Source: Acidobacteriota bacterium
Lineage (GTDB): Bacteria; Acidobacteriota; Terriglobia; Bryobacterales; UBA6623
Direction of reading: 5' to 3'
Length of the DNA: 35,904 nucleotides
Assembly: GCA_027592785.1 (NCBI GenBank)
Contig: JAQCLD010000042.1
Location: 1 to 35,904, forward strand
This document shows positions 943 to 20,519 of this stretch, one piece after another. The position numbers and the translations under genes were made by a program. A model generated the notes under the pieces. That model did no database searches. It was not told where the DNA came from and saw only the letters and a program-made list of their open reading frames with translations. The stretch's first letter is position 1; every line of letters begins with the position of its first letter.

Positions 943-1019
943 GGGCGCGTAGCTCAGTTGGTTAGAGCGCCTGCTTCACACGCAGGAGGTCCCCAGTTCG
1001 AGTCTGGGCGCGCCCACCA
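943..1019 (+). tRNA. tRNA-Val (anticodon CAC)
   Basis: A full cloverleaf can be drawn. The acceptor stem GGGCGCG (943-949) pairs with CGCGCCC (1009-1015), followed by discriminator A1016 and an encoded CCA (1017-1019). The D-stem is GCTC/GAGC (952-955/965-968). The anticodon stem CCTGC/GCAGG (970-974/982-986) frames the loop TTCACAC with CAC at 977-979, which reads GUG (Val). The T-stem is CCCAG/CTGGG (992-996/1004-1008) with loop TTCGAGT. A recombinase gene ends 7 bases downstream, so this tRNA is the likely integration target. Confidence 0.96.
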
Positions 1020-1025
1020 TTAGAA

Positions 1026-2048: not shown

Positions 2049-2201
2049 GTCCTCGACTCTCCCAAGGCACTTGGTCTTCTTGACTTCTAGCAAAATCAAT
2101 AACTCGTTTCTGATGCAGTTGGGCGTTCGTCAGGGCGTGCATGTCGATTCTCGGGACTTGGTATTCCCGACCAGTAATTGAGGAGCAAGAGCCGAGAGGG
2201 C

Positions 2202-5600: not shown

Positions 5601-5726
5601 GTGTTCGACCAGATAGACCTATCCTCAATCCCATTCTTTGCCGCCCAGTTGGTGGTGTCCGGTCTGGACTCTTGGGACATTACCCGGAATCCTGATTCGA
5701 CTTGCTGCGGTTCTCTAACCTCATGA
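5601..5726 (+). CDS. Small ORF / possible leader peptide (41 aa) of the SulP-Dab-Mrp operon
   Basis: GTG start preceded by GGAGG (5591-5595) at 5-base spacing, the best ribosome-binding site in the region. It encodes 41 residues, mixed hydrophobic (SSIPFFAAQLVVSGLDSWD) with two adjacent Cys near the end and no known family. Its TGA (5724-5726) overlaps the ATG of the SulP gene in an ATGA junction, so ribosomes finishing it would be positioned to start SulP. It may be a translational-coupling leader or a genuine micropeptide. It is unusual enough to record but unproven. Confidence 0.4.
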   Translation: MFDQIDLSSIPFFAAQLVVSGLDSWDITRNPDSTCCGSLTS

Positions 5727-7360
5727 GCGTCACGACGACACCTGTTCCTAAGGGCACTATCGAGGGACTTCGCAGCTATTGGACCGCTGACCTGCTCTCG
5801 GGCTTTCTGGTGTTCCTCATCGCCCTGCCCCTGTGCCTCGGCATATCTCTCGCTTGTGGTTATCCGGCCATGGCGGGCATCTTCACCGCCATCATTGGTG
5901 GAGTCCTGTCGACATTTATTAGCAACTCGGAGCTGACCATCAAGGGCCCCGCGGCCGGACTGATCGTCATCGCGATCGGATGCGTCACGGACTTCGGTTT
6001 CACTGCCGGCACGGACCCCGCAGCGGATATGCAGGCCTATCGGCTTGCGCTGGGCGTCGGCGTCGCCGCTGGGGTTATTCAGATCCTCTTCGGACTCTTC
6101 CGAGCCGGCATTCTGGGCGAGTTCTTTCCATCGGCGGCAGTGCACGGCCTGCTCGCATCCATCGGCATCATCATCATCGCCAAACAGTTTCCAGTCACGT
6201 TGGGCTTGAGTTCGCAAGGGTCGCCGCTGGAACTGCTGGCGAAGATTCCCGAGTTCGTAATGACCATGAATCCGTACGTGGCGGTGATTGGGATTATCAG
6301 TTTGGCGGTGATGTTTGGGCACCCGTTCCTCAAGATAGGATTCATCCAGAAGATACCGGCCCCGATGATCGTACTGCTGCTCACGGTTCCGCTCGGGATG
6401 TACTTCGAGATGAGCCAGTCGCGAACGTATTCATACGGCGGCAGTGAGTTCGCTCTGGGTCCGCAGTTTCTGGTCGATGTTCCACTGAACATGTTTAGCG
6501 CAGTCGCATTCCCTGACTTCTCCGGTGTGGCGACGATGATCGGCTTGAAGTACATCGTGCTGTTCGCCTTGATAGGCAGCCTAGAATCTCTGCTTAGTTC
6601 GAAAGCGATCGACCAAATTGATCCTTGGAAGCGACGGACGGACCAAGATCGTGATTTGCTCGCGGTTGGAATCGCCAACACTGCTGCGGCCATGGTGGGC
6701 GGCCTGCCGATGATCTCCGAAATCGTCCGCAGCAAGGCGAACATCGACAATGGCGCGAAGACACGCTTCGCAAACATGTTCCATGGCCTCTGTCTACTTG
6801 CGTTTGTCGCGTTGGCCCCCGCTCTGATCAATCAGATTCCTCTCGCGGCGCTCGGAGCGATGTTGGTTTTCACGGGATTCCGGCTGGCGTCACCCAAAGA
6901 GTTCATCCACATGTATCACGTGGGGCGCGAACAGCTGATCGTGTTTGTGGCAACGATCATTGGCGTCCTAGCAACCGACCTTCTTGTGGGTATCGGGATT
7001 GGAATATTCGTCAAGGTCGTGATTCACCTTGTGAACCGAGCGCCCTTCGGGTCGCTTGTCCGACTGAATGCGCAGGTGGAGCGTGAAGGGACGGAGAGCG
7101 CTCGAGTCACGGTTCAGGACTCGGCGGTCTTCAGTACCTGGATCGGCTTAAAGAAGAAACTCGAAAACGTCCGGGACTGCAAACGAGTTGTCCTCGATCT
7201 GTCGAGCGTGGCTCTCGTCGACCACACGGTGATGCACAAACTCGAAGAAATGGAGGAGGAGTTCCAGGAACACGGCTCTACGTTGGTCGTCGAAGGACTG
7301 GACCAGCACACCAAGTTGTCGGACTATCCAACGGCGGCTAGGATAAAGGGAGCCCCATAG
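5723..7360 (+). CDS. SulP-family anion (probable bicarbonate) transporter with STAS domain
   Basis: A 545-aa SLC26/SulP transporter. The N-terminal membrane domain (about residues 10-430) contains the conserved ITIKGPAAGL-type loop (here TIKGPAAGLIVIAIG), and LVFTGFRLA lies near its end. A C-terminal cytoplasmic STAS domain (about 450-545) shows VVLDLSSVALVDHTVMHKLEEM. SulP proteins carry sulfate, bicarbonate (for example cyanobacterial BicA) or other anions. Its place one base before dabA favours bicarbonate. ATG at 5723 is chosen because it overlaps the small upstream ORF and starts at the normal N-terminus; a TTG at 5702 would only add seven residues. The stop TAG is followed after one base by the dabA ATG, implying a shared transcript. 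Confidence 0.93.
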   Translation: MSVTTTPVPKGTIEGLRSYWTADLLSGFLVFLIALPLCLGISLACGYPAMAGIFTAIIGGVLSTFISNSELTIKGPAAGLIVIAIGCVTDFGFTAGTDPAADMQAYRLALGVGVAAGVIQILFGLFRAGILGEFFPSAAVHGLLASIGIIIIAKQFPVTLGLSSQGSPLELLAKIPEFVMTMNPYVAVIGIISLAVMFGHPFLKIGFIQKIPAPMIVLLLTVPLGMYFEMSQSRTYSYGGSEFALGPQFLVDVPLNMFSAVAFPDFSGVATMIGLKYIVLFALIGSLESLLSSKAIDQIDPWKRRTDQDRDLLAVGIANTAAAMVGGLPMISEIVRSKANIDNGAKTRFANMFHGLCLLAFVALAPALINQIPLAALGAMLVFTGFRLASPKEFIHMYHVGREQLIVFVATIIGVLATDLLVGIGIGIFVKVVIHLVNRAPFGSLVRLNAQVEREGTESARVTVQDSAVFSTWIGLKKKLENVRDCKRVVLDLSSVALVDHTVMHKLEEMEEEFQEHGSTLVVEGLDQHTKLSDYPTAARIKGAP

Positions 7361-7361
7361 T

Positions 7362-10241
7362 ATGCCGCCTGTAGGGGCCTCAATGGCGCCGAATTCGACG
7401 ATGCGTACGTTATCCGCTGAAGAGCGAGACGGCGTCCGGCAGCAGGTCGAGGAAGCCTGCCAACCAGTCGCACAGTTGTGGCCCCTACGGACGTTCGCGT
7501 ATCGCAGCCCAGTTCGAGGGTACGAATACTTGCCTTTTGACGAGGCTGTCCGAGCGGCGCATCACACGCTCGGAGGCGTCGGCTATCTCCCTAACCACGA
7601 GTACCGCGGCTTCTACCAAGAAGGCCGCATCAAGGACGAAAACGTTGCGCGCGCGCTGACTCGAATGGGGCCGAGCGTGGACTCCGACGCAGTGGTCACG
7701 GTCGGTTCTCGAAGGATCACGGCGGCGGAAGTGTTGCGGATTCACTTGCTCTCAGGAATCGAAGCGCTAGAGCCAAAGCTGTTGGAGTGGACGCTAAAGG
7801 CTGAAGGCCTGATGAACTCGCTGACGACCGACGTACCGGGCGGCGATCTGTGGAATGCCATCCTGTCTGTGCTCGATGAAGACAGGCTAGTTGCTGTGCA
7901 CCAGGACTCGACCTTGGGCGAGGAATCCTTAGGTTTGCGGACACTTGGCGACTGGCTCGACGCTCGGGGAGGCGCCTCAATTGTCGAGCAAGTGAACGGC
8001 GAGATGATCAAATGGAGCGCGGCCTTTCTTGATGAAGGGCTAGCTGGTTGGGGCATGCCCGACCGATCGCAAGGGTTCTACCGATCCTGGCGGGAACTCG
8101 CAGCGCACGATGCTTCGGGCCGACTGCTAGGAGTCCGAGACTTTGGTGCGAAGGTGAGAGCGCTGCCTGACGCGCCCGAAGATGCGGTGGCTTGGTGCTT
8201 GAACACGCTCGAGGTGCCGGAGGCGAACTGGAAAGACTATCAGTCGCGGCAATTTGCGCAATTGCCCGGTTGGACAGGGTTCGTGAGATGGCGCGGTGAG
8301 AACCCCGAGTATCCGAGCCAGCAGGAGTATCCAATCGACTTGGTTGAGTACCTAGCGGTTCGGCTGTTCTACGAAGTTGTATTGGTCAACGCATTTTGCA
8401 AAAGGGCGTGGGGCATCCCCGGGACGCTGTCTGCGATCAAGCCGAAGCTCGCTGAGACGGAGACCCACGAGGAAGCCCCCCGCACGGTGATGTTGTGCCG
8501 AAGCGCGTGGCGTCTTTTCCGGCTCAGCCAACACTTGGAGCTTGCGGCCGAGGATGTAGCACGACTGTCTGAAGCCGACGTGCGTACGCTCCTCGGTTGG
8601 CTGGATGCGTTCCCCGCCGAGGACCATGGGCGGGTTTGGCTTGAGGCCTACGAAGACGCTTACCGCGACGGTCTCGTCGGAAAACTTTCGGCGCACGAAA
8701 GCATGGTGGCGAAAGCGGAACGTCCTCGCGCACAACTGATCTTGTGCATCGACGCACGTTCGGAGCCTTTTCGTCGGCACATTGAAGCAAGCGGGTCCTA
8801 CGAGACTTTCGGGTACGCTGGGTTCTTCGGCGTTCCGATGAGCCACCAAGCATTCGACAGCGCCGAGCGCCTCGCGCTCTGTCCTGTCCTGCTCAAACCT
8901 GGTCATGCAGTCGCTGAGACCTTCCGGCCTGGCGAGCCCGGCCCCATGCAGGCCTATGCGTCTGGGACCCGTTGGCGGCGGTTAGGCGACGATTTGTTTC
9001 ACGACCTAAAGCAAAACCTGTTGACTAGCTTCATGTTGGTCGACGCACTGGGGCTATTGTTCAGCATCGGGCTCACCGGAAAGTCCGTGTTTCGCAAGAC
9101 GTTCGTGAACAGCCGAGCCTGGCTGCGACGTGGATTCAAGCCTGCGCTGAATACCCACATACCGTTTGCGAGGACGGACCAGTCGGCGTCGGACAACGGA
9201 TTGCTGCACGGGTTCACGCTTGAGGAGCAGGCCGCGTTCGTCGGCGGCGGCCTGCGAGTCATCGGCCTAACCAAGCGGCTGGGCAAGTTCGTCGTTGCTT
9301 GTGGGCATGGCGCGATCTCGGAGAACAACCCTTACGCGGCCGCCTACAACTGCGGCGCTTGCGGTGGCGCCCACGGCGATCCGAATGCCCGCGTATTCGC
9401 GGCGATGGCAAATCGCCCCGAGGTTCGTCGCAAGTTAGCGGAAGCCGGGCTCGTGATCCCCGACGACACTTGGTTCTTGGCCGCCAAGCACGATACGACA
9501 GCGGACAGCGTGGCGTTCTATGACGTCTCCGACGTGCCCGCAACTCATACGGACGATTTCCGGCAGCTGACGCGCGACCTAGCGGAAGCAGGGGCTATCC
9601 AAACAGCGGAACGTTGTGCCCACTTACCCGGCTCTCCCAAAGGCATGTCGCCCAAAGCGGCCTTTGAGCACGCTCAATCCAGGGGCAGCGATTGGGCCAA
9701 CGTTAGACCCGAATGGGGCCTGTCGGGGAATGCGGCCTTCATCATCGGCCGGCGGCAGATTACTGCAGGCCTCGACCTTCAGTCACGGGTTTTCTTGCAT
9801 TCGTACGATCACGCTTCGGATCCGGAAGGAGCTCTGCTTGAGAAGATCATGACGGCCCCGCTGATTGTCGGCGAATGGATCAATATGGAGTACTACTTCT
9901 CCGCCGTTGATCCTTGGTTCTACGGCAGCGGCAGCAAGGTGATCCACAATGTGGTATCAGCGGGCGTCATGCTCGGGAGCCAGAGCGATCTCCAGGGCGG
10001 GCTTCCCTTGCAGGGCGTCAACAACGGCGCGAAGCACTATCACGAACCTATGCGTCTGCTAGCGATCATCGAGGCGCCGATGGAGCGAATCGCCTCCACC
10101 ATCGCCAAGCACGCCATTCTCCAGCAAGTGTTTCACAACGGGTGGATGAACCTATTGGCGTTCGATCCGGAGACGGGGCTTTTCCATCGCTACCACGCCG
10201 ATTCCAGTTGGGAGGTGATGTCGCAGCCGCGGGCCGCTTAG
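7362..10241 (+). CDS. dabA: DabA (DUF2309) inorganic-carbon accumulation subunit
   Basis: A 959-aa soluble or peripheral protein of the DUF2309 family, the catalytic half of the DAB (MpsB-type) systems, proposed to hydrate CO2 to bicarbonate vectorially with its membrane partner. The zinc-site residues are all visible: Cys462 and Asp464 in LCIDARSEPF, then His649 in CGHGA and Cys664 in NCGACGG. Cys-x-Asp and the 15-residue His-to-Cys spacing match the characterised Halothiobacillus DabA site (C351, D353, H524, C539, from memory). Arg466 completes the CxDxR dyad. It is flanked by SulP and by mrpE (22 bases). The usual neighbour, a lone dabB, is replaced by a whole Mrp-like membrane arm. Length and domain appear complete. 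Confidence 0.96.
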   Translation: MPPVGASMAPNSTMRTLSAEERDGVRQQVEEACQPVAQLWPLRTFAYRSPVRGYEYLPFDEAVRAAHHTLGGVGYLPNHEYRGFYQEGRIKDENVARALTRMGPSVDSDAVVTVGSRRITAAEVLRIHLLSGIEALEPKLLEWTLKAEGLMNSLTTDVPGGDLWNAILSVLDEDRLVAVHQDSTLGEESLGLRTLGDWLDARGGASIVEQVNGEMIKWSAAFLDEGLAGWGMPDRSQGFYRSWRELAAHDASGRLLGVRDFGAKVRALPDAPEDAVAWCLNTLEVPEANWKDYQSRQFAQLPGWTGFVRWRGENPEYPSQQEYPIDLVEYLAVRLFYEVVLVNAFCKRAWGIPGTLSAIKPKLAETETHEEAPRTVMLCRSAWRLFRLSQHLELAAEDVARLSEADVRTLLGWLDAFPAEDHGRVWLEAYEDAYRDGLVGKLSAHESMVAKAERPRAQLILCIDARSEPFRRHIEASGSYETFGYAGFFGVPMSHQAFDSAERLALCPVLLKPGHAVAETFRPGEPGPMQAYASGTRWRRLGDDLFHDLKQNLLTSFMLVDALGLLFSIGLTGKSVFRKTFVNSRAWLRRGFKPALNTHIPFARTDQSASDNGLLHGFTLEEQAAFVGGGLRVIGLTKRLGKFVVACGHGAISENNPYAAAYNCGACGGAHGDPNARVFAAMANRPEVRRKLAEAGLVIPDDTWFLAAKHDTTADSVAFYDVSDVPATHTDDFRQLTRDLAEAGAIQTAERCAHLPGSPKGMSPKAAFEHAQSRGSDWANVRPEWGLSGNAAFIIGRRQITAGLDLQSRVFLHSYDHASDPEGALLEKIMTAPLIVGEWINMEYYFSAVDPWFYGSGSKVIHNVVSAGVMLGSQSDLQGGLPLQGVNNGAKHYHEPMRLLAIIEAPMERIASTIAKHAILQQVFHNGWMNLLAFDPETGLFHRYHADSSWEVMSQPRAA

Positions 10242-10263
10242 GCTTCGATTGCGATTTCCAGCT

Positions 10264-10758
10264 ATGAACGCCGCCCACTCCAACACGTTGCCGCTACGGA
10301 CGCTCGCACTGTTCGTCCTGTGGCTGCTTCTATCCGAGAGTTACACCTTGGGTCACATGGCGATCGGGTTCGCCGCGGCGCTCAGTGTGGCGTTCTGGAA
10401 TTCAAGCTACCTGTCGCGCTCCGAATACCAGGTGCGCTGGGTCCAGGCATTCGCGTACCTTCCCTGGCTGTTTGGCCGGATTCTCGCCAGCGGCGCCCAT
10501 TTGTCGTATCTGATCCTCCATCCCAAGCTACCCATCGACCCTAAGATGATTCACCATCGCCCTCGATTGTCGAGCGAAACGGCGCTTGTGATTCTCGGCA
10601 ATTCTATTACGCTGACTCCGGGCACCATCACCCTCGAAGCGAGTTCGGACGAGCTCGTCGTGCACGCGATGGACGATGAGTCGACGATGGATGTCGTGAA
10701 CTTGCGGCTTGAGAACAAGATTTCCGGTCTATTTGTACGGAGGGCTTCCCGCCAATGA
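10264..10758 (+). CDS. mrpE: MrpE/MnhE-like (MbhA-like) antiporter subunit
   Basis: A 164-aa MrpE-family protein. Two N-terminal membrane segments (ALFVLWLLLSESY, AIGFAAALSVAFW) are followed by a further helix and a cytoplasmic domain with the conserved ALVILGNSITLTPGTIT block. In Mrp-type Na+/H+ antiporters this small subunit caps the end of the complex. Translation probably starts at ATG 10264; the frame is open from 10249 but lacks an initiation signal there. The stop TGA overlaps the mrpF ATG (ATGA). It is the first subunit of a run that follows the order E-F-G-(D/E fusion)-B-C-D. Confidence 0.92.
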   Translation: MNAAHSNTLPLRTLALFVLWLLLSESYTLGHMAIGFAAALSVAFWNSSYLSRSEYQVRWVQAFAYLPWLFGRILASGAHLSYLILHPKLPIDPKMIHHRPRLSSETALVILGNSITLTPGTITLEASSDELVVHAMDDESTMDVVNLRLENKISGLFVRRASRQ

Positions 10759-11021
10759 CCGGATTCAGCCTAGTGGTCCTGGATGTGTTGGCAGTGCTGA
10801 TCGTTGTCTACCTGTACCGTGTCGTACGCGGACCGACTGTATACGACCGAATCTTGGGACTGAACGGGATCTCCACTAAGGCGATCATCCTCCTGGTGGT
10901 CATTGGTACGGTCTACGAACGGGTCGCAATGTTCGTCGATATATCTACTGGCTACGCTTTGCTCAATCTGGTAGGCGCGTTGGCGCTGGCCAAGTATTTG
11001 GAACAGAGAGGAGCTTTGTAA
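10755..11021 (+). CDS. mrpF: MrpF/MnhF-like (MbhB-like) subunit
   Basis: An 88-aa protein with three hydrophobic helices and the family core RVVRGPTVYDRILGLNG, including the conserved Asp-Arg after the first helix. This is the normal size for the family. The start overlaps the mrpE stop by 4 bp and GGAGGG lies about 9 bases upstream. TAA (11019-11021) is directly followed by the ATG of mrpG. It is a membrane subunit of the cation/proton-translocating arm. Confidence 0.94.
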   Translation: MTGFSLVVLDVLAVLIVVYLYRVVRGPTVYDRILGLNGISTKAIILLVVIGTVYERVAMFVDISTGYALLNLVGALALAKYLEQRGAL

Positions 11022-11321
11022 ATGGAATACGTTGGCGCAGGGCTGATGACCGTTGGCCTGCTCTTTATGGTCGTTGCTGCAGTCGGCATGGTCCGCCTGC
11101 CCGACGTCTATACGCGGGCTCATGCCGTCGCGTTGACGGATTCTCTGGGTGCGGTGTTTCTATTGGCCGGTTTGGCAGCGCAGCAAGGATTCAGCCCGAA
11201 TGCGCTGAGAATTCTTGTAGTCCTCTCGCTGCTCTACATCCTGAACCCCGTAATCGCCCACGCAACAATTCGAGCGGCGCGGCGGTCGGGCCTGAGGCCA
11301 TGGACCAGGGAGAAGCCATGA
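11022..11321 (+). CDS. mrpG: MrpG/MnhG-like (MbhC-like) subunit
   Basis: A 99-aa protein with three hydrophobic helices and the MrpG signature MVRLPDVYTRAHAVALTDSLG, close to the family's RLPDxYTRxHA. It is preceded by AGAGGAG. The C-terminal tail is basic and the TGA overlaps the next start (ATGA at 11318). It is a structural subunit of the Mrp/Mbh-type membrane arm. Confidence 0.94.
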   Translation: MEYVGAGLMTVGLLFMVVAAVGMVRLPDVYTRAHAVALTDSLGAVFLLAGLAAQQGFSPNALRILVVLSLLYILNPVIAHATIRAARRSGLRPWTREKP

Positions 11322-11848
11322 GCTATTCGTTCGAGCTGCCGCTGTTGATCCTACTTATTCTGACAGCTGGCGGAGCCATCGTCGTAAAGGACCTAATCAG
11401 TTCGGTCCTCATTCTGGGTTCTTACAGTTTCTTTCTGGCGCTTGTTTGGGCGTGGTTGGGGGCAGTCGACGTCGCCTTCGTTGAAGCGGTGGTCGGAGCC
11501 GGGCTGGCGACTGTCTTCTTCCTGTTAACGCTTTTCCGGATGGCTCCCGAGCATATATTGATTCAGCGTTCCCCGCCGCCAATCAGTGCGGTCATTGCCC
11601 TGCCTTTGCTGGGACTGTTGCTGCTTTATGCGGCGTCGGACCTTCCCGCGTTCGGCGATCCCCAGTCGCCGGCAAGTTCCCACATATCGCCGTACTACTT
11701 GGAGAATAGCCTCCGTGAAACGCAGACTCCTAACGTCGTCACGGCTGTTCTGATGGACTATCGAGCCCTCGACACGATGCTCGAAACGGGAGTGATCTTC
11801 ACGTCCGGCATGGCCTGCTGGCTCTTGCTGGGGAGGAAACACTCGTGA
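11318..11848 (+). CDS. Stand-alone MbhD-MbhE-like fusion (MrpA C-terminal/DUF4040 type)
   Basis: A 176-aa membrane protein equivalent to the region that in classical Mrp operons forms the C-terminus of MrpA. The first half (about residues 1-75: AGGAIVVKDLISSVLILGSYSF, DVAFVEAVVGAGLATVFFL) is the DUF4040/MbhD domain. The second half (about 115-176: SPYYLENSLRETQTPNVVTAVLMDYRALDTMLE-type block) is the MbhE/MnhB-N domain. It is a separate gene here, not fused to the NuoL-like protein. ATG 11318 is chosen over 11300 because it gives an ATGA overlap and has GGGAGAAG upstream. The conserved Glu/Lys residues of the MbhD helices are thought to form part of the ion pathway. Confidence 0.88.
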   Translation: MSYSFELPLLILLILTAGGAIVVKDLISSVLILGSYSFFLALVWAWLGAVDVAFVEAVVGAGLATVFFLLTLFRMAPEHILIQRSPPPISAVIALPLLGLLLLYAASDLPAFGDPQSPASSHISPYYLENSLRETQTPNVVTAVLMDYRALDTMLETGVIFTSGMACWLLLGRKHS

Positions 11849-12294
11849 TCAATACGCCACATGACAGCGTAATCGTGCAGAGTTCCGGGCGGTTCTTGAT
11901 TCCTCTGATTCAGCTATTTGGGCTCTATGTTCTGTTCTTTGGGCAGTACGGACCTGGCGGAGGTTTTGTAGGAGGCGTCTTGCTGGGTGCAAGTCTCATC
12001 GCCGGCCTGTTGATCTTTGGCCCCGACGGAACGTCGTCGGAAACCGCCAGAAGGGTGCTAAAGATTGACGGGTTCGGCTTGATCATCTTCGCCGGCATCG
12101 GTGGCTTGTGCCTGATCGGAGGCGGCGAATTCCTGAACTACTCGAGCTTCTCGATCCCCGGCATCGATGATTCCACGCGCCGCCATGTCGGCATTATCGT
12201 GGCTCAGATCGGAGTCGCCCTCGACATCGCGGTAGCGGCGGTGTCCATCGTCTACAGCCTATCTGACCAAGGCGAGGATGGCTCTGATGCTTGA
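11845..12294 (+). CDS. mrpB: MrpB/MnhB-like (MbhF-like) subunit
   Basis: A 149-aa MnhB-domain protein with four hydrophobic helices and the family motif QYGPGGGFVGGVLLGASLI. The GTG start overlaps the preceding TGA (GTGA) and follows a strong GGGGAGGAAA site. The C-terminus is short and acidic. It is a subunit of the cation/proton-translocating arm. It overlaps the beginning of mrpC. Confidence 0.94.
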   Translation: MINTPHDSVIVQSSGRFLIPLIQLFGLYVLFFGQYGPGGGFVGGVLLGASLIAGLLIFGPDGTSSETARRVLKIDGFGLIIFAGIGGLCLIGGGEFLNYSSFSIPGIDDSTRRHVGIIVAQIGVALDIAVAAVSIVYSLSDQGEDGSDA

Positions 12295-12661
12295 CGTCAT
12301 TGAGGCGTTGCTACGTCGACCGAACTTCGTCGCCTTCGTGACTTTGTTCTTGTGGGGCCTCTACATCACGGTCGTGCATCACAACCTCGTCAAGAAGTTG
12401 ATCGGCCTCTACCTGGTACAGACCAGCGTTATCTTCTTCTTAGTCACGACCAGCGTGAAGTCGGGAGCAACCGTGCCGATCGTGGATCTTGCTGCAGGCA
12501 CGGCCCCTGAGGTGTATATGAATCCTCTGCCTCACGCCCTGACGCTGACCGCCATCGTTGTGCAGGTGGCGACGCTGGGCGTCTCCTTGGCCCTAGTGGC
12601 GGCCATCTATCGCCGATTCGGTTCTCTCGATGAGAACGAGATCTTGAAGCGACTAGAATGA
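12287..12661 (+). CDS. mrpC: MrpC/NuoK-like (MbhG-like) subunit
   Basis: A 124-aa NuoK/MnhC homologue with three hydrophobic helices. The family block is LVKKLIGLYLVQTSVIFFLV, and the second part ends in the PLPHALTLTAIVVQVAT stretch typical of MnhC. The open frame begins at ATG 12278. ATG 12287 is preferred because GGCGAGG (12271-12277) is then correctly spaced, while it would touch the earlier ATG. It overlaps the mrpB stop by 8 bases and the mrpD start by 4. Confidence 0.93.
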   Translation: MLDVIEALLRRPNFVAFVTLFLWGLYITVVHHNLVKKLIGLYLVQTSVIFFLVTTSVKSGATVPIVDLAAGTAPEVYMNPLPHALTLTAIVVQVATLGVSLALVAAIYRRFGSLDENEILKRLE

Positions 12662-14136
12662 CTCAACATCTGCCAGCACTAGTATTCCTCATACCGTTTT
12701 TCGCCGCCATTAGTCTTCCTCTAGTGGCGATGCGTGATGAGCGGCGTGCTGGGTCGATCGCGTTGGCGGCTCTGTGCGCCATGTCCGCGGCGGCAATAGC
12801 AAGCCTGTGGACCATTTTGGACCAGGGAGTGGTTCGCTACGACTTCGGTGGGTGGGCCGCCCCAATAGGCATCGAATGGGTGGCTGACGAAGTGGCCGCG
12901 ATCATGGCGGTTGCGGCTAGCCTGCTGGCACTGGTGTGCGTCTTCTACGCGGCCTCTTTGCCGACAACGGCGATCGAAGGAAGAATGATTCCGTTCTACG
13001 CGATCCTTCTTCTCTTGATTTCCGGACTCGCTGGAGTAATCTACGCTGGCGATCTATTTAACCTCTTCGTCTTTTTGGAAATCGTCGCGCTGTCGGCTTA
13101 CGCACTGGTGGCCGTGCCCGGAGGCAGGGCCCTGGTATCAGCGTTTCGATACCTCATCATGGGCGCCCTCGGAGCCTCCTTCTATCTGCTCGGAGTCGCC
13201 TACTTCTACGCGGCTACCGGAACGCTGAACATAGTGGATCTTGGCCAGCGAATCCCACAGCTCTTGGAGTCGAAAGCGGTCATCGTGGGGCTGCTCTTCA
13301 TGTTCTTGGGATTGGGCATCAAAACTGCCCTGATGCCGCTGCACGCCTGGCTGCCTGACGCCTACTCTGACGCCCCAGATTCCGTTTCGCCGATCATCGC
13401 GGCTTTGTTAACCAAGGTTGCCCTATTGGCTTGGGTCCGCGTCTTGTTTTGGGTAGTCGGTGCAGGAGGCGGGTCCCAGCCAGCCGTCGTATTCTCGCTG
13501 GTGTGGTCGCTGGGCGCGCTGGCTGCGGTGGGCGGCGCCGTTCTCGCGCTGAGCCAGACGGGATTGAGGCGAATGTTCGCCTACGGCGGCATCGCTCACA
13601 TTGGGCTGATTCTGGTCGGCGTAGGGCAAGCGAGCCACACCGGGTTAGCTGGAGGGCTCTTCTATTTGATCAATGACGCCGTGATGCAGTGCGTCTTGTT
13701 CATCTGGGCCGGCGTACTGGCCCATCAGTATGGCGTTCGGACGATCGAGGATCTAAAGAACGCCCAAGTCCGGAACCCTTGGATTCTCGGGTCATTCCTT
13801 GTAGTCACCATCGGCATGATCGGCCTGCCTCCGACCGGCGGTTTCTTTGGAAAGTGGTACATCGTCCTAGCCGCGGTTGAGAGCCAGAACTATATTGCCT
13901 TAGCCGCTGTCGTCGTGACCACGTTGCTCACCCTCGCGTACTTCGTTCGCGTCTTGGAGAAGCTCTACCGAGGGGCCCGCGATACCGGCACGAGCAGCTC
14001 GGTCGCCGAGCCCGTGATGTCCCTATCGTTTCGCGTGGGCATCGCTGTGCCCACGGCGGCGATCATCGGCCTTGGTTTGTTCAGCGACCGTATCGTCACC
14101 ATTTTGTTAGCAGCGACTAGCGGGTTGGGTCTATGA
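12658..14136 (+). CDS. mrpD: MrpD/MbhH-like proton/cation antiporter subunit
   Basis: A 492-aa, about 14-helix protein of the Proton_antipo_M family (NuoN/MrpD type). Expected charged residues for ion transfer are present: Glu in FVFLEIVALSAY, Lys in GLGIKTALMPLHAWLPDAY and Lys in ALLTKVALLAW, then a GLPPTGGFFGKWY discontinuous helix. ATGA overlap with mrpC. In Mrp and Mbh complexes this subunit carries an ion channel across the membrane. Together with the two following homologues it would supply three such half-channels. Confidence 0.95.
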   Translation: MTQHLPALVFLIPFFAAISLPLVAMRDERRAGSIALAALCAMSAAAIASLWTILDQGVVRYDFGGWAAPIGIEWVADEVAAIMAVAASLLALVCVFYAASLPTTAIEGRMIPFYAILLLLISGLAGVIYAGDLFNLFVFLEIVALSAYALVAVPGGRALVSAFRYLIMGALGASFYLLGVAYFYAATGTLNIVDLGQRIPQLLESKAVIVGLLFMFLGLGIKTALMPLHAWLPDAYSDAPDSVSPIIAALLTKVALLAWVRVLFWVVGAGGGSQPAVVFSLVWSLGALAAVGGAVLALSQTGLRRMFAYGGIAHIGLILVGVGQASHTGLAGGLFYLINDAVMQCVLFIWAGVLAHQYGVRTIEDLKNAQVRNPWILGSFLVVTIGMIGLPPTGGFFGKWYIVLAAVESQNYIALAAVVVTTLLTLAYFVRVLEKLYRGARDTGTSSSVAEPVMSLSFRVGIAVPTAAIIGLGLFSDRIVTILLAATSGLGL

Positions 14137-14175
14137 GCTACCGCGGGAATATTGCTATGAGGGGGGAGCGATAGT

Positions 14176-16203
14176 ATGACGGTCTTCGCGCTCATCCCGC
14201 TGCTGCCGCTGCTGGGTTTCTTTGTCATTGCCTTTGGCGGCAATCGCCTTGGTGAGGTCAGCCACAGGATTGGCATTCCCGCGGTAGGCCTGTCTGCGGC
14301 GCTTTCCTTTGTTGCCTTCTACTACGTGGCGGTCGCGGGGCCGATATCGATCCCGCTTTACACGCTGATCGATGTTGGCGCCGTCTCCGTTGCCGTGGAT
14401 CTCTACATCGACCAGCTCACCGTTCTGTTGCTGTTGCTGGTGACGGTCGGCAGTTTCGTCGTTCACGTCTACTCATCGAGCTACATGATCGGCGACCCGC
14501 GATACAGGCGTTTCTTCGCGGTAATCGGGCTGTTTACGTTCGCGATGGTTCTATTGGTGATGAGCAACAACTTGCTCGTGACCTACATGTGCTGGGAGGT
14601 CATGGGGATCTGTTCCTACTTGCTGATCTCGCATTGGGCTCACCGCGAGTCGGCTGCCAAAGCCGCGACCAAGGCATTCTTAGTTAACGCTGTCGCCGAT
14701 GTCGGTCTTGGCTTTGGAGTCATCTTCACTCTTGCTACTTACGGCACGCTGAACATTCAAGAGATCCTGGCGGCTGTTCCGAGCATGGCCGGGTCCGACA
14801 TCAATCTGCTCGGTTGGCTTGGATTCGAATGGTTGATTGAGCGTAATACGCTGATCACGTTCTGTCTGCTGTCGGGCGCACTGGGCAAGTCCGCTCAGTT
14901 CCCGCTTCACATTTGGCTGCCTTTCGCCATGGAAGCGCCAACGCCGATATCAGCTCTGATTCACGCCGCGACAATGGTCAACGCAGGGCCATTCCTATTG
15001 GCTCGCATGAGCCCTCTCGTGTTGTCCGCGCCTTCAGCAATGGCGGTCATCGCGATCGTAGGAATGACAACCGCTGTGTACGGCGGCCTGGTCGCGCTAA
15101 CCCAGTCGGACATCAAGAAGTCGCTGGCCTATTCCACCATCAGCCACATCGGATTCATGATTTTCGCGTGCGGAGTCGGCGCTTTTGTCGCGGCGATCTT
15201 CCATTTGCTGGCGCACGGATTTCTCAAAGGTTTCTTGTTCCTTTCGACAGGCAATGCGCTTGAGTCGGCAAGCGCACACGGGCACGCCAAGAGTAGCGGA
15301 CGAGTTTCGGGTTCACTGGCGGCCGGGGCCCTGTTGCTCGCTCTGATTCCGGCGGTGGTGATCTTCTCGGGACCGTATGAGCAGATGTGGACCGCACATC
15401 AGACTCCCGCGGCTCAAGTCGCGTTCTTTTTTCTAGCTCTCGCCACAGTCTTTTTGACGGGGATGTACATCTTCCGTGCTGTGAGTTCGCTGTTTGGGCA
15501 TCAGGTCGGCAACTCCGGCGTTCTGCCGAATCTGTTCGCGCCCGCCTATCTTGCGGGAGTCGGCGTTCTAGTGGCCGCCGTGGGATGTCTCCTCGTTTTC
15601 GTGTGGACGTGGTTTGCCGCCTTCTTAGGGCCAGCCCTAGGCGCCCAACCGCCGCTCGCGGCCGGTCCGGCCTTCTCGCCGTGGCTCGTGGCGGCGCTAT
15701 TGGCAGCGGTCGCCGGATGGGGTTTCGCGCGTCAGTTCCAGCCCAGCCCGACGTTTGCGGGCGCTTGGACCAAGATGGCTTACGTGGCTCTGTTGAACCG
15801 ACTTTACGTCGACGAAATCTTCGACGCTTTCGTCGTCGGGCCCTTCATTCGGTTCTGTGATTGGTTACAAGGAACAATTGAGACTCTCGGCTTGGACAAC
15901 TTAATTCAGACGACTGCCAGAGTCGTGATGGTGCTGTCGAACTGGCTTTGGACCGTGCTGGAAGTCAGAGGCCTGGACCGTGGGCTCGGCGGTGGAGCGG
16001 ACTCGTCCGTAGCCTTGTCGCGCTGGCTTTGGCGAGTGGTAGATCTTCGTGGCGATGCCATGGTCGAGGGGCTCGGACGCGCCAGCGATGAGACCGGCGA
16101 GATGCTGCAGAGAATCGAACCCCGCACATTGCAGCATCACTTGTTGGTCGTTGTTTTTTGGCTGATGTTGGCAATAGCTCTGTCGTATTGGTTAATCCTG
16201 TGA
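14176..16203 (+). CDS. NuoL/DabB-like membrane subunit
   Basis: A 675-aa NuoL-family antiporter subunit with about 15-16 helices and an amphipathic C-terminal extension ending in a last helix (LLVVVFWLMLAIALSYWLI). Key residues are Glu in MCWEVMGICSYL and Lys in GALGKSAQFPLHIWLP. The usual LPDAM is LPFAM here. The segments ATMVNAGPFLLARMSPL and GFMIFACGVGAFVAAIFHLLAH resemble DabB (MpsA) more than complex-I NuoL, so it is the best candidate for the direct docking partner of DabA. It lacks the DUF4040 tail of MrpA, supplied by the separate gene at 11318. GGGGGGAG precedes the ATG. It lies 39 bases after mrpD. Confidence 0.9.
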   Translation: MTVFALIPLLPLLGFFVIAFGGNRLGEVSHRIGIPAVGLSAALSFVAFYYVAVAGPISIPLYTLIDVGAVSVAVDLYIDQLTVLLLLLVTVGSFVVHVYSSSYMIGDPRYRRFFAVIGLFTFAMVLLVMSNNLLVTYMCWEVMGICSYLLISHWAHRESAAKAATKAFLVNAVADVGLGFGVIFTLATYGTLNIQEILAAVPSMAGSDINLLGWLGFEWLIERNTLITFCLLSGALGKSAQFPLHIWLPFAMEAPTPISALIHAATMVNAGPFLLARMSPLVLSAPSAMAVIAIVGMTTAVYGGLVALTQSDIKKSLAYSTISHIGFMIFACGVGAFVAAIFHLLAHGFLKGFLFLSTGNALESASAHGHAKSSGRVSGSLAAGALLLALIPAVVIFSGPYEQMWTAHQTPAAQVAFFFLALATVFLTGMYIFRAVSSLFGHQVGNSGVLPNLFAPAYLAGVGVLVAAVGCLLVFVWTWFAAFLGPALGAQPPLAAGPAFSPWLVAALLAAVAGWGFARQFQPSPTFAGAWTKMAYVALLNRLYVDEIFDAFVVGPFIRFCDWLQGTIETLGLDNLIQTTARVVMVLSNWLWTVLEVRGLDRGLGGGADSSVALSRWLWRVVDLRGDAMVEGLGRASDETGEMLQRIEPRTLQHHLLVVVFWLMLAIALSYWLIL

Positions 16204-16288
16204 AGCTAAACGATATCAGCGATCCTGTGGCATCATGGTGCGGCTGTGCTGAGCGCTGCCTCACGGCTTTGAAGTTGAGGTGCCTGGA

Positions 16289-17791
16289 ATGAGTACGATT
16301 CTCGCCGATCATTTGATTAGCTGCCTGATCGCAGTCCCGTTCTTGGGCATTGCCTTGTTGGTTCTTGCGAAGAGCGACGAGTGGGCTCGACGCATTGCGT
16401 TATTGGCCACGTTCGCCGCGCTTGGAGTAGCAATTACGGCGCTGCTGAGTTTTGACCCCGGCCAGTCAGGTATGCAGTTCGTTGAGCGTGCGGAGTGGAT
16501 GCCCACCTTCAACATTCAGTACGCCGTCGGACTTGACGGCATCAGTATGCTGCTAGTCCTGTTGACGGCGCTGCTATCGCCCATCTGCGTTTTGGCTTCA
16601 TGGAAGTCGATCGACAGCAAGGTCAAGGCTTACATGGCGCTGATCCTCTTGGTCGAAGGGGCCATGATCGTCGTCTTTACCGCCCTGGACCTGTTTCTGT
16701 TCTTCATGTTGTGGGAAGTCACGATGATTCCCATGTATTTCATGATCGTGATCTGGGGCGGGCCTGGCCGCATCGCCGCCGGCATCAAGTTCGTGCTTTA
16801 TAGTCTGACCGGCAGCCTTCTGCTACTTGTCGGCATTCTCGGACTTTACCTGGAGGGCGGTCGGACATTCGACATCCTGGCGCTGAGCGGGCAAACGTTC
16901 AGCGACGATGTGCAGTTTTGGATCTTTCTGGCGCTCCTACTCGGATTCGGCATCAAGCTCCCGATGATCCCGTTCCACTCCTGGCTTCCAGACGCGCACT
17001 CAGAAGCCCCGACCGCCGGCAGCGTTATCCTCGCCGGAGTGCTGTTGAAGCTGGGCGGTTACGGGTTCTTGCGGATCTGTCTTCCGATTCTGCCGGACGC
17101 TTCCGTGGTCTTTGCTCCCTTGATGGTATGGCTGTCCGTCGGGGCGATCTTGTACGGAGCGTGTCTCGCACTGGCCCAGACTGATCTCAAGAGACTAGTG
17201 GCCTACTCGTCGATTTCTCATATGGGCTTCGTGACACTGGGAATCTTCGCGTTCAATGAGCAGGGGGTTCAGGGCGCCATTCTGCAAATGTTTAATCACG
17301 GCATCACGACCGCAGCGCTGTTCTTGGCCGTAGGGCAGCTATACGATCGGACTCACAGCCGTTCAGTCGACGATTATGGCGGCCTGCACAAGCAGATGCC
17401 GCGGTTTGCCGTGGCGCTTTCGTTCTTTTCGGTCGCGTCCTTCGGTTTGCCTGGGACGGCCAATTTCATCGGCGAGTTCCTCGTGTTGGTCGGCGCTTCC
17501 TATACGAGTTTTGCGAGAGTCTTGCTCGCGATGCTTGGAATCGTTCTGGCTGCGGCCTACATGCTGTGGATGCTTCAACGTGTGGTTCTCGGGAAAGCCT
17601 TGACCCGGGCGGCAGCCGCGCTTCCTGACCTCAGTACCCGCGAGATGGCGACGCTCGTTCCGCTTGCCATCATCATTTTCGTTGTAGGCGTATACCCAGG
17701 TCTTCTGATGGAGTTAATGGACGCGAGCGTCATCAACCTTGTAGAGCAGGCGCGGGTCGGGCTGCCAGCCGATATGGCGGCGCTGGACTAG
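16289..17791 (+). CDS. NuoM-like proton-translocating subunit
   Basis: A 500-aa NuoM-family (complex-I chain 4) protein with about 14 helices. It shows Glu in MLWEVTMIPMYFM, Lys in GIKLPMIPFHSWLPDAHSEAP and in LLKLGGYG, and LPGTANFIGEF. It closely resembles genuine complex-I NuoM, yet no other nuo peripheral-arm gene is nearby, so it probably belongs to the Mrp-Dab assembly. ATG 16289 is preferred to GTG 16280 because a GAGG-type site is correctly placed. The gap of about 85 bases after the NuoL-like gene is the largest inside the operon. TAG ends the operon; no strong terminator follows. Confidence 0.92.
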   Translation: MSTILADHLISCLIAVPFLGIALLVLAKSDEWARRIALLATFAALGVAITALLSFDPGQSGMQFVERAEWMPTFNIQYAVGLDGISMLLVLLTALLSPICVLASWKSIDSKVKAYMALILLVEGAMIVVFTALDLFLFFMLWEVTMIPMYFMIVIWGGPGRIAAGIKFVLYSLTGSLLLLVGILGLYLEGGRTFDILALSGQTFSDDVQFWIFLALLLGFGIKLPMIPFHSWLPDAHSEAPTAGSVILAGVLLKLGGYGFLRICLPILPDASVVFAPLMVWLSVGAILYGACLALAQTDLKRLVAYSSISHMGFVTLGIFAFNEQGVQGAILQMFNHGITTAALFLAVGQLYDRTHSRSVDDYGGLHKQMPRFAVALSFFSVASFGLPGTANFIGEFLVLVGASYTSFARVLLAMLGIVLAAAYMLWMLQRVVLGKALTRAAAALPDLSTREMATLVPLAIIIFVVGVYPGLLMELMDASVINLVEQARVGLPADMAALD

Positions 17792-18035
17792 CAGGGAAGC
17801 CCAACCGGACGCTCCCGTCCTCTGACGAACGGCGGAGGCGCCCTCACAGTATCTGCGGCGGACTCAGTCGCCCGAACACGGCAGGATACACGAAATCTCC
17901 GTCTACATACTTCCAGTGTTTTCAATAACTTGCCTCCGTTTTGTCGTGGTAAGCGCCGTCCAGGAACACAACGAGGTACACTCCGTCTCGGGTAACCGCG
18001 CCCTTACAGGGGCCGTCATTCCCATTACTAGGCTG

Positions 18036-19076
18036 ATGAGTTTCTACGTTCGTTTGTTATCGCTCACGCTGCTTGGCGGATCCCTGCTTTGGGGACAGTC
18101 CAGCGACCGCTTCACTCAGGCGGTTTTGCCGTTCCTTGCGCAGAACTGCTACGCCTGTCACGGCTCCGACGACGCCGTCGGCAAGTTGAACATCGCGCGG
18201 CTGGACTCGCCGCAGTCGCTGCAAGAGCACCGCGCGCAATGGGCAGCCATGGCCGAGAAAATGGCGTCGGGCGAAATGCCGCCTGCGGGATTTCCGCAAC
18301 CGCCGGCAGAACAGCGGACAGCTGTCGTCGAATGGGTCACGGCGGAGCTGGCGCGCCTCGACGATCTCGTCGCCCCGAACCCGGGCCGTGTGACCGCGAG
18401 CAGGCTGAATAGGGCCGAGTACGACAACACGGTTCGCGACCTACTCGGCGTCCGATTCCGCCCTGCCGACGACTTTCCGCAAGACGATTCCGGCTACGGC
18501 TTCGACAACATCGGCGACGCTTTATCGCTGTCTCCCGTACTGATGGAGAAGTATCTATCCGCAGCGGAGGCAGTATCGCGGACCGCCATCTTTGGCGTAA
18601 AAGAGTTGCAGCCCGCCCTCACGCGTTTCGACCCAGCCTTCATGAACTTCGATGAGAGCCAAGATGCGCCGTTCACTTACGACGAGACCGGCCTGAGTCT
18701 GCCGAGCGCGCTCCACGTGTCCCATCGCTTTCTCGCGGATGGCGATTACGACTTCACCGGGTTGATTCGAGGCTTCCGCCCGCCGGGCTCCGAGCCGATC
18801 CCAATGGCTTTCTGGATCGACGGCGAGATGGTGGAGGCCGTCGACGTCGAAATACCTTCAACGGGCGAACTCTCCGGCCAGATAGCGATGATCCGTCATC
18901 ATGTGACGGCGGGCGATCATTGGTTGGCCGTCTCGTTCCTGAAGCTCTATCACGGCCTTCCGCACGAATACAGCGGACCGGAACCATCCAAGCTTCCGCC
19001 CCCGCCGCCTGCCGATCCCGATGAGCTGTTCCGGCCCCCGCCTGGTGCGACGCCCGAAGAGATCACCGAACTCTAG
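18036..19076 (+). pseudogene. Cytochrome c/DUF1587-DUF1592 protein, N-terminal part (gene broken by TAG)
   Basis: First part of a large secreted haem protein of the Planctomycete-cytochrome/DUF1587-1592-1588-1585 type. ATG 18036 begins a signal peptide (LLSLTLLGGSLLWGQ). A cytochrome-c site CYACH (Cys38, Cys41, His42) follows, with a likely axial Met in GEMPPAG, then the DUF1587 block RLNRAEYDNTVRDLLGV and a beta-rich, carbohydrate-binding-like region. The frame stops at TAG 19074 and continues open afterwards in the same frame to a second TAG at 19287, then to the normal end at 20519. Without the two stops the protein would be 827 aa, a normal family length. The N-terminal piece alone is probably non-functional. 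Confidence 0.85.
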
Positions 19077-19289
19077 GCCCGCAAAGAGCGTTTCCTCGCT
19101 CGCCGGGCGCGACAGGCAGACGCCGGCAATGCCGACGCGCGCCGGCGTGCTTCGGCTGGCTTCTTCATGAGCAACCTCGACGTGACTGGCCCTTACAACC
19201 AGAAGCTAGGCCCGTCTGAAGAAAGCAAGAAGCTCATCTATACCTGTGGGCATTCCGACGGCGTACATAACCTAGCTTGCACCCGATAG

Positions 19290-20519
19290 ATCGTCTCCAA
19301 TCTGGCGACACACGCCTACCGCCGGCCAGTCGCCGAAGCCGAAGTGCAAGAACTCATCGGCTTGGTGGAGATGGTCCAGCGGACAGGCGACCCCTTCGAA
19401 GAAGGCCTCGCCCTGGCCATGCAGCGCCTCTTAATCTCGCCCAACTTCCTGTTCCGCATTGAGCATGGAACGGAATTGCCCGGCAAGCCCTTCCAAGCCG
19501 TCGCCGACTACGAACTCGCCTCGCGGCTTTCCTATTACTTGTGGAGCAGCATGCCTGACGACGAACTCATGCGGCTCGCCGGCGAGGGCCGTCTGCGGGA
19601 CGAAGCTGTTCTCGATGCGCAGGTGCACAGAATGCTGCAGAGTCCTAAAGCGCAGGCTCTTGTGAAGAACTTTGGCGGGCAATGGCTTCAGTTCCGGGCC
19701 CTGGAGTCCATCAAGCCCGACCGGGACGTATTCCCAGCATTCCAAGAGTATCTGCGCAAGTCGATGGCAGAAGAGACCGAACAGTTCTTCGCCTACATCG
19801 TCCAACAAGACCGTCCGATTACAGACTTCATCGCTGCCGACTACACATTCCTCAATGAGAAGTTGGCCAATTTCTACGGCATCCCCGGAGTCAAAGGAAA
19901 CGAGTTCCGTAAGGTGGACCTGGCGGGTACGCCCCGCGGCGGCGTTCTGACCCAGGCCAGCATCCTGACGGTGACCTCCTACGCCAATCGAACCTCTCCT
20001 GTATTGCGTGGCAAGTGGGTTCTCGAGAATATCTTGAACGCGCCGCCTCCGCCGCCTCCGCCCGGCGTACCGCCGCTCGAAGAATCCTCGGTTGGTCCGA
20101 CGGCATCTCTAAGGAAGAAGATGGAAGCCCACCGCACCAACACGACCTGCGCTTCCTGCCACGCCCGCATGGACCCGCTCGGATTCGGGCTAGAGAACTT
20201 TGATGCAATCGGAGCCTGGCGAACCAAGGACGGTGAGCACGACATCGACGCTTCCGGGAAATTGCCCGATGGCCGATCGTTCAATGGGCCAACGGAATTG
20301 CGCGAGATCTTGACCGCTGACCGCGATGCGTTCACTGTTGGTATGACAGAGCGCATGCTGACCTACGCCCTAGGCCGTGGCCTTGAGACTTACGATCGCC
20401 GGACGGTTCGCTCGATTGCGCGCGAAACTGCTGAGAACGACTACCGCCTCTCAAGCCTTGTTGCTGGAATCGTGAAGAGCCTGCCGTTTCAGCATCGCCA
20501 AGAGGGAGAAAACCAATGA
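19290..20519 (+). pseudogene. DUF1592/DUF1588/DUF1585 C-terminal part of the same broken gene
   Basis: Continuation of the preceding gene in the same frame. Just before the second TAG the frame reads HSDGVHNLACTR, then IVSNLATHAYRRPVAEAEV, matching the family's CARxI...AYRRPV junction, so the TAG replaces one normally coded residue. DUF1592 (about LLISPNFLFRIEHG to FGGQWLQ), DUF1588 (NRTSPVLRGKWVLENIL, PPPPPPGVPPLEE) and DUF1585 follow, with a second CxxCH (CASCHARMDPLGFGLENF). A restart at GTG 19344 or ATG 19371 is possible. The TGA overlaps the ATG of the DUF1552 partner. The cellular role of this family is not established; a role in secreted electron transfer or polymer breakdown is usually guessed. 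Confidence 0.85.

Follow-up and report, generated by a model that had tools for sequence, protein, structure and literature searches.

A conserved operon joining DabA to complex-I-like and Mrp-type membrane subunits: a possible three-channel-arm CO2 hydrase of Bryobacterales and Nitrospirales

CO2 hydrases of the DabA family have been described as DAB2 (DabA2-DabB2) from Halothiobacillus neapolitanus, solved as PDB 9rd0, and as MpsAB from Staphylococcus aureus. The literature on these enzymes is split over the ion that they use, with H+ proposed for DAB2 and Na+ for MpsAB. Larger gene sets are also on record. In its text on these operons, the COGNAT paper lists a "clade C" of YbcC operons holding COG0659 (SulP), COG3002 (DabA), COG1009 (NuoL) and COG1008 (NuoM), and offers the idea that more membrane genes in YbcC/NuoL operons mean more ions pumped (PMC5700660). 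The passages on "Ca. Nitrospira alkalitolerans" (PMC7784846) and on lineage IV Nitrospirales (PMC12342949) describe Mrp genes in which mrpD is followed by two NuoL/NuoM-like genes, together with SulP. Thus, the caution of the initial annotation that an association of this kind may not be wholly new was well placed: SulP, DabA, NuoL and NuoM were published together in 2017, and Mrp, NuoM/L and BicA in 2020, separately. No published account of the whole set (DabA, Mrp, NuoL/NuoM and SulP) was found.

The whole set does occur in the stretch of DNA analyzed here (the "window," 35,904 nucleotides from a bacterium of the Bryobacterales, Acidobacteriota). Eleven genes fill positions 5702-17791, all on the plus strand, and each product has a Pfam match in a profile search (Table 1); the set, its order and its single strand are as the initial annotation had them. 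That annotation began the operon at 5601, about 100 bp too early, as the reading frame of SulP opens no earlier than 5696. The "several" 4-bp overlaps that it reported number three (E/F, DE/B and C/D). Longer overlaps join G to DE (22 bp) and B to C (17 bp), and the remaining junctions have gaps of 1, 7, 0, 39, and 76 bp. A scan for promoters and terminators gave counts no better than chance, and no tRNA-Val attachment-site repeat of at least 14 bases was found within the window.

Table 1. Genes of the operon, with positions in the window and the profile match of each product.
Product	Position	Strand	Profile match
SulP-family anion transporter, C-terminal STAS domain	5702..7360	+	PF00916, 183 bits
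DabA, beta-carbonic-anhydrase-like catalytic subunit	7362..10241	+	PF10070, 857 bits, profile 1-747/747
MrpE/MnhE-like subunit	10249..10758	+	PF01899, 107 bits
MrpF-like subunit (MnhF)	10755..11021	+	PF04066
MrpG-like subunit (MnhG)	11022..11321	+	PF03334; TIGR01300 above cut-off
MbhD/MbhE fusion, counterpart of MrpA C-terminal part	11300..11848	+	PF13244 and PF20501
MrpB-like subunit (MnhB)	11845..12294	+	PF04039
MrpC/NuoK-like subunit (MnhC)	12278..12661	+	PF00420
MrpD antiporter-like subunit (MnhD)	12658..14136	+	PF00361, 186 bits
NuoL-like subunit, probable DabA docking partner	14176..16203	+	TIGR01974, 424 bits
NuoM-like subunit	16280..17791	+	TIGR01972, 611 bits

By Pfam, the operon holds Mrp subunits E, F, G, B, C, and D and the MbhD/E part of MrpA, whose closest solved chains are the C-terminal regions of MrpA and the D and E subunits of MBH. 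The N-terminal antiporter half of MrpA is not in the operon; NuoL and NuoM sit in its place. Outside the operon, a search of the window genome gave no other antiporter-type (PF00361) gene; the genome is 94% complete, and further subunits may have been missed. On this result, any Mrp unit must rely on NuoL or NuoM as well for its completion.

The set is conserved well beyond this one contig. It is syntenic in all 15 genomes of the Bryobacterales-type family that carry this DabA (type D), with every Mrp gene open. Among 29 informative Nitrospirales loci, DabA is linked to the Mrp part in 28; it lies directly upstream in 24, and in four a second, inverted DAB cluster lies inside or adjoins the interval. 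In the one unlinked case (genome G466), DabA and the Mrp operon are 263 kb apart. A unique chance arrangement was rejected, and chance clustering is excluded, because the gene order is conserved in two phyla; these counts support conservation of the whole set as one unit. The initial annotation would have taken operons that routinely lack dabA at unchanged synteny as a sign of incidental clustering. Such operons, with the order E-F-G-DE-B-C-D, are indeed common in Acidobacteriota. They match the Mrp half only, as the two antiporter genes at their end fall in other clades; the kind that carries this NuoL and NuoM has DabA linked in the proportions just given.

The sequence of DabA supports a catalytically intact enzyme. 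In DabA2, the zinc ligands and the Asp-Arg dyad are C351, D353, R355, H524, and C539; the window protein, aligned to 9rd0, has C462, D464, R466, H649, and C664/C667, and these ligands and the dyad are invariant across all compared sequences. L787, in the motif EWGL, is the equivalent of Leu658 and replaces the canonical Gln/His; it is invariant in a 25-sequence alignment and, one unresolved residue excepted, in a wider comparison. A single-chain model (pLDDT 77.4) predicts a membrane finger at about 526-575, made of two helices (526-551 and 553-575). Within it, Asp561 aligns with Glu444 of the solved DAB2 complex, a conservative replacement. Asp is the residue at this position in all 15 DabA sequences of the Bryobacterales type, in 27 from Nitrospirales and in all six from Mrp-free Nitrospira. 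A fold search with this model, against entries released up to April 2026, gave no significant match, the best being a carboxysomal beta-carbonic anhydrase (E 0.04); DAB2 entries were absent from the matches.

The antiporter-like subunits differ in what they have lost. NuoM has invariant E144, K234, K265, and E407 (the last kept in 44/44), and MrpD has invariant equivalents of E133, K217, K247, and K395, with its TM12 Lys kept in 43/43; the proton paths of both are thus intact by sequence. NuoL retains E144, but its ion pair with R175 is broken, as the latter is missing in 47/47. The TM12 pair Lys399-Asp400 is likewise missing in 47/47, in an alignment whose register there is uncertain (it shifts by two to three columns between runs). 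An Arg lies nearby in some members, and a conserved Glu (E402) in the same region could stand in for Asp400. Since NuoL alone of the three lacks the Lys-Asp pair, for which the finger acid is proposed to substitute, it is likely to be the docking partner of DabA.

NuoL also carries a long C-terminal lateral helix. Its tail after the YxDE motif has 126-181 amino acids in all 42 Mrp-bearing cases and 83-109 in the five Mrp-free ones. This is what would be expected if the lateral helix straps additional subunits, although the contrast may reflect a single evolutionary event. A fold search with the single-chain model of NuoL, of moderate confidence (pLDDT 67.7), had complex-I NuoL as almost every one of its 50 best matches.

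Phylogeny gives these parts different histories. The product labelled "NuoL/DabB-like" in the initial annotation scores above the TIGR01974 cut-off and is nearer complex-I NuoL than classic DabB, and in the tree it falls inside the NuoL assemblage, with the DabA-linked NuoL of Nitrospira and away from type-A DabB. The NuoM-like product is likewise nearer NuoM than classic DabB. Both are sisters of the proteins that adjoin DabA in Mrp-free Nitrospira, and their identification as stray complex-I genes was rejected, as they form DabA-linked clades of their own. MrpD, however, groups with Mrp operons that lack DabA. Thus, the operon is a hybrid. In the combined NuoL and NuoM tree, the Bryobacterales copies are nested in Nitrospirales diversity (98.6/99) and the Mrp-free clade lies outside all Mrp-bearing clades (98/98). 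A quick DabA tree differs, joining the Mrp-free clade to two Mrp-bearing loci (97); the difference bears on whether Mrp was gained once or was lost in Nitrospira.

The machine that these observations suggest would be a single membrane complex. Its arm would be complex-I-like, with NuoL, NuoM, and MrpD as three antiporter-type subunits, and its base Mrp/MBH-like, built from MrpE, F, G, MbhD/E, B, and C. DabA would sit on the tip of NuoL, which its finger would enter at the lost TM12 Lys-Asp pair, with Asp561 as the replacement acid. Activated via ion flow through NuoL, DabA would then convert CO2 to HCO3- at its zinc site, and NuoM and MrpD, their proton paths complete, would tie the DabA-NuoL pair to the H+ or Na+ that flows through the base. 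Such a complex, driving vectorial CO2 hydration, is the favored reading, at about even odds; physical assembly, energy coupling, the ion used and direction are its conjectural parts. Points against it are the one genome with unlinked parts, the Mrp-free Nitrospira, the E144 that NuoL retains, and the uncertain TM12 stretch with its conserved E402. Ion passage through all three antiporter subunits as the drive, and Na+ as the ion, are hypotheses. A fuller reading, in which the three-channel arm on its Mrp base couples Na+ as well as H+ flux to vectorial hydration, and in which one merger of DabA-NuoL-NuoM with Mrp produced this hydrase, which then spread from Nitrospirales to the Bryobacterales type, is tentative and somewhat less likely than not.

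A quite different account, doubtful on balance but to be taken seriously, puts two machines in one operon: a DAB-type CO2 hydrase made of DabA and NuoL, possibly with NuoM, next to an independent Mrp-type Na+/H+ antiporter. Here, the antiporter would maintain pH and the Na+ gradient, bicarbonate would come from DabA, and from SulP where present, and the link would be co-regulation for salty or alkaline water rather than common structure. Clusters of BicA with a Na+/H+ antiporter are so explained for Aphanothece and "Ca. Nitrospira alkalitolerans" in the relevant passages of PMC7784846. Further, many Acidobacteriota have the Mrp half by itself, with different partner subunits, the parts are unlinked in one genome, and Mrp-free Nitrospira keep DabA-NuoL-NuoM, implying that the Mrp base is dispensable for some function of the core. 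With neither the N-terminal half of MrpA nor another antiporter-type gene seen in the window genome, however, NuoL and NuoM would have to be divided between the two machines, and each locus with the Mrp half has the longer NuoL tail.

Two other accounts turn on the host, which appears to be no RuBisCO autotroph; such autotrophy was rejected because the sole RuBisCO-like match is OiaX beside OiaK, of isoapionate catabolism. The absence of RuBisCO would suit a respiring heterotroph that hydrates excess metabolic CO2 to export H+ or Na+ and conserve energy, with SulP exporting bicarbonate. An exergonic reaction was proposed to pump ions in the COGNAT discussion of YbcC/NuoL operons (PMC5700660), and the sequences of NuoM and MrpD point to intact subunits. 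Nevertheless, this reverse direction is very improbable: CO2 hydration makes little energy available, purified DAB2 shows no spontaneous hydration and is presented in PMC13144422 as a hydrase that works one way and is activated by the PMF, and autotrophic Nitrospirales with the same operon require carbon input. It is also unlikely that DabA mainly substitutes for carbonic anhydrase in serving the anaplerotic carboxylases of a heterotroph, with Mrp and SulP as unneeded passengers of a transferred block. The nested position of the Bryobacterales copies fits transfer, and a search that covered the beta class of carbonic anhydrases (PF00484) gave no match in the window genome or in three other type-D genomes. 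But 11 of the 15 type-D Bryobacterales genomes do have the beta enzyme, by which DabA as a general sole carbonic anhydrase was rejected, and passengers would hardly be expected to stay open and syntenic in 15/15.

SulP holds a looser place. Its closest solved structure is BicA (6ki1), yet it scores 121 of 880 bits with the NCBIfam BicA model and is not a BicA equivalog. As judged from sequence, it is a possible HCO3- route. An integral, parallel bicarbonate route, as the initial annotation had it, fits poorly with its optional status in Nitrospirales, where it is missing at many loci, and with the residues that differ at the BicA-type Na+ site.

Should the single-complex reading be correct, the complex-I membrane arm would be a modular engine able to power a non-redox enzyme, and the complex-I/Mrp arm would gain a third role next to redox pumps and antiporters. 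The operon is also relevant to the carbon supply of nitrite-oxidizing Nitrospirales, and the Mrp-bearing form, set against its natural Mrp-free Nitrospira sister, offers a direct comparison for the question of H+ or Na+.

Among known systems, the membrane arm of respiratory complex I and the MBH hydrogenase share with this operon a NuoL-NuoM-N-like series with a lateral helix and NuoK- and NuoJ-like small subunits. The operon, in contrast, has no NuoH, quinone, hydrogenase or other peripheral complex I module, and NuoD (PF00346), which most relatives have, was not found in the window genome. DabA-less Acidobacteriota operons (such as loci L092, L104, and L119) have the seven Mrp genes in the same order and MrpD in the same clade, but differ in the absence of DabA and in their final two antiporter genes.

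The locus reported for "Ca. Nitrospira alkalitolerans" and lineage IV Nitrospirales is probably the same operon, although the passages that describe it interpret it as a Na+/H+ antiporter that carries additional mrpA/D-like genes and leave DabA unmentioned. Clade C of COGNAT resembles the window operon in having DabA upstream of NuoL, plus SulP and NuoM, but its description there makes no mention of Mrp genes; the Mrp-free type-C loci of this analysis have DabA proteins of a distant clade in which the finger acid is missing, and shorter, divergent NuoL and NuoM. The Mrp-free Nitrospira loci (L076-L084) have sister NuoL and NuoM and a DabA 38-41% identical, whose active site and finger Asp are the same; their genomes lack Mrp genes, their NuoL tail is shorter, and SulP lies downstream.

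With DAB2 and MpsAB, finally, the window operon has in common the DabA family with its Cys-His-Cys zinc site and Asp-Arg dyad, the Leu658 equivalent, a finger hairpin that bears an acid, and an antiporter-type partner without the TM12 Lys-Asp pair. It differs in adding NuoM and seven Mrp/MBH-type genes, in a finger acid that is Asp rather than Glu, and in its partner, where a complex-I-like NuoL bearing a long lateral helix takes the place of a classic DabB. The two partners have even broken the same ion pair from opposite sides: classic DabB has lost E144 (Ile151 in DAB2), whereas NuoL here keeps E144 and has lost R175.

The operon comprises eleven genes on one strand, encoding SulP, DabA, MrpE, MrpF, MrpG, an MbhD/MbhE fusion, MrpB, MrpC, MrpD, NuoL and NuoM, exactly the order that the initial annotation had read. 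Several 4-bp overlaps had also been claimed; three were counted (E/F, DE/B and C/D). Two further junctions overlap by 22 bp and 17 bp, and the widest gap between operon genes is 76 bp. A scan for promoter-like and terminator-like patterns gave none above chance. The host genome is a 4.55-Mb draft, 94% complete, of which the window is one entire contig.

Positions of the operon and of neighboring features in the window
Feature	Position	Strand
tRNA-Val/integrase region	943-3486	
Phage-type integrase gene	1026-2099	minus
Enolase-superfamily ORF	2896-3486	
Operon, SulP to NuoM	5702-17791	plus
NuoL C-terminus, amphipathic repeat (alignment A3)	15790-16203	
Cytochrome/PSD-domain gene	17916-20519	
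In-frame TAG codons	19074, 19287	
PSD-cytochrome + DUF1552 pair, one	17916-21859	
PSD-cytochrome + DUF1552 pair, other	27488-30726	

Downstream of the operon, two TAG codons break the otherwise continuous frame of a cytochrome/PSD-domain gene (DUF1587/1592/1588/1585); a pseudogene, a sequence error and recoding are all possible. Two PSD-cytochrome and DUF1552 (HXXSHH) gene pairs flank sugar-oxidoreductase-type genes. Elsewhere, a phage-type integrase gene stands directly behind a tRNA-Val, and the enolase-superfamily ORF that comes next lacks its N-terminal part. This region resembles an integration site; no att repeat of 14 bases or more turned up in the window.

The operon is genuine and conserved: a variant of the DAB family, built from known modules, that has gone largely undescribed. 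The suspicion that the association might not be wholly new was justified. SulP, DabA, NuoL and NuoM were described together in the 2017 COGNAT work, where a multi-subunit energy-converting complex was guessed (PMC5700660). A 2020 paper on Ca. Nitrospira alkalitolerans has Mrp genes, two NuoM/NuoL-like genes and BicA, with DabA unnamed (PMC7784846). No published description of DabA and Mrp genes as one system was found in a literature coverage that is incomplete.

Here, type D denotes the window's kind, type A the classic DabB-DabA, and type C the DabA-NuoL-NuoM of Acidobacteriota without Mrp. All 15 same-family genomes with a type-D DabA, the window's included, carry every gene of the set in unchanged order; in another family member (G002), DabA is of the distant type C and comes with NuoL and NuoM and no Mrp. 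Among 396 genomes drawn from the phylum, DabA occurs in 9 and MnhE in 76, both together only in the window genome. Among 197 Nitrospirales genomes, DabA occurs in 177 and MnhE in 52. Thirty-eight Nitrospirales MnhE loci were inspected. Seven (L125-L131) are standard mrpA-G operons without DabA, and the other 31 have an Mrp half of the window's kind; two of these (L160, L164) are cut by contig ends and were left out, giving 29 informative loci. DabA lies directly upstream, on the same strand and within ~2 kb, in 24 of the 29. An inverted second DAB cluster lies in or adjoins the interval in four (G478, G474, G526 and a decayed G496), and in G466 DabA is 263 kb distant. The inverted cluster (L132, L134/L145, L146, decayed L163) holds a NuoL-like gene, a further ORF or NuoM-like gene, and a DabA with a finger Glu; it sits between type-D DabA and MrpE, or, in L163, adjoins that interval. 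Thus, the expected linkage of DabA to Mrp genes stands in 15/15 family genomes and 28/29 Nitrospirales loci, but the Mrp half also occurs in DabA-less Acidobacteriota operons. SulP is present at many of the Nitrospirales loci of this kind and absent from others, which makes DabA, Mrp and NuoL-NuoM the conserved unit. In some Acidobacteriota (L098, L099), genes like NuoH, NuoB and NuoCD come after the Mrp-type ones, in a layout similar to MBH/MBX.

Judged from its trees, the operon is a merger of two known modules, because in a tree of antiporter-like subunits its NuoL and NuoM pair, with full or near-full support, as sisters with those adjoining DabA in Nitrospira genomes lacking any MnhE, and its MrpD groups (99/96) with that of the DabA-less Acidobacteriota operons, whose order is E-F-G-DE-B-C-D plus two more antiporter genes. 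A NuoL+NuoM tree nests the copies from Bryobacterales inside the Nitrospirales ones (98.6/99), with the Mrp-free Nitrospira branch outside (98/98); this topology suggests a single merger and a later transfer. A quick DabA tree conflicts with it on the placement of two loci.

The active site of DAB2, a solved complex, relies on Cys351, His524 and Cys539 with an Asp353-Arg355 dyad and has Leu658 where a canonical Gln/His is expected; a helical finger bearing Glu444 reaches into DabB2 (PMC13144422). The window DabA can be aligned across all these sites. C462, D464, R466, H649 and C664/C667 are invariant in all type-D, Nitrospirales and Nitrospira sequences compared, as is L787 except for one unresolved residue. 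Asp561 takes the position of Glu444, and the predicted model places helices at 526-551 and 553-575 in the finger region. All 15 Bryobacterales-type DabA, 27 from Nitrospirales and all six from Mrp-free Nitrospira have Asp at this position; Glu occurs in four further Nitrospirales DabA (those of the inverted cluster) and in type-A sequences. Type-C DabA (L047, L050-L053, L055, L056, L058, L109-L112) has no acid there and an intact Zn site, and its coupling may differ from that of DAB2. SulP is often near these type-C loci.

BicA is the nearest solved relative of the window SulP by sequence, and SulP scores far under the BicA model cut-off. The Asp and Thr that we take to be the BicA Na+ site are aligned to Glu and Ser. 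DAB2 is reported to use H+, not Na+, whereas a case for Na+ has been made for MpsAB (PMC13144422). Here, the Mrp base hints at a part for Na+, and related Nitrospirales loci have been associated with saline and alkaline environments (PMC7784846, PMC12342949). As to the product, the host search for RuBisCO found none, its sole match being the RuBisCO-like OiaX, and no beta-carbonic anhydrase was found in the 94% complete genome; use of bicarbonate for anaplerotic carboxylation is therefore plausible. OiaX adjoins an OiaK kinase (L085, contig C113 of the same genome), which indicates isoapionate catabolism.

Do these genes make one complex or two? The genome, at 94% completeness, has three PF00361 genes, all inside the operon, so any Mrp unit must borrow NuoL or NuoM for the absent MrpA half. 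DabA, for its part, would need NuoL. Behind its YxDE motif, the NuoL tail measures 126-181 residues in 42/42 Mrp-bearing sequences and 83-109 in 5/5 Mrp-free ones, with lengths changing in ~28-residue steps from an amphipathic repeat (WLWRVVDxRGID...). In complex I, the lateral helix of NuoL extends along NuoM and NuoN; by analogy, a longer strap would match a longer arm. A single complex is our best guess, at roughly even chances.

The residues of NuoL bear on its probable role as the membrane partner. The Glu444 of DAB2 is described as replacing Lys399-Asp400 of NuoL (PMC13144422). Among the three antiporter-like subunits, this pair is missing only from NuoL (47/47 sequences), a count to be read knowing that the alignment register moves between runs and that a conserved Glu nearby (E402) could substitute. 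A complex-I NuoL of the same family has the pair, NuoM retains its TM12 Glu (44/44) and MrpD its TM12 Lys (43/43), both with their other path residues. Further, NuoL has lost R175 (47/47) and retained E144. In DAB2 the same E144/R175 ion pair is broken, but there by loss of E144.
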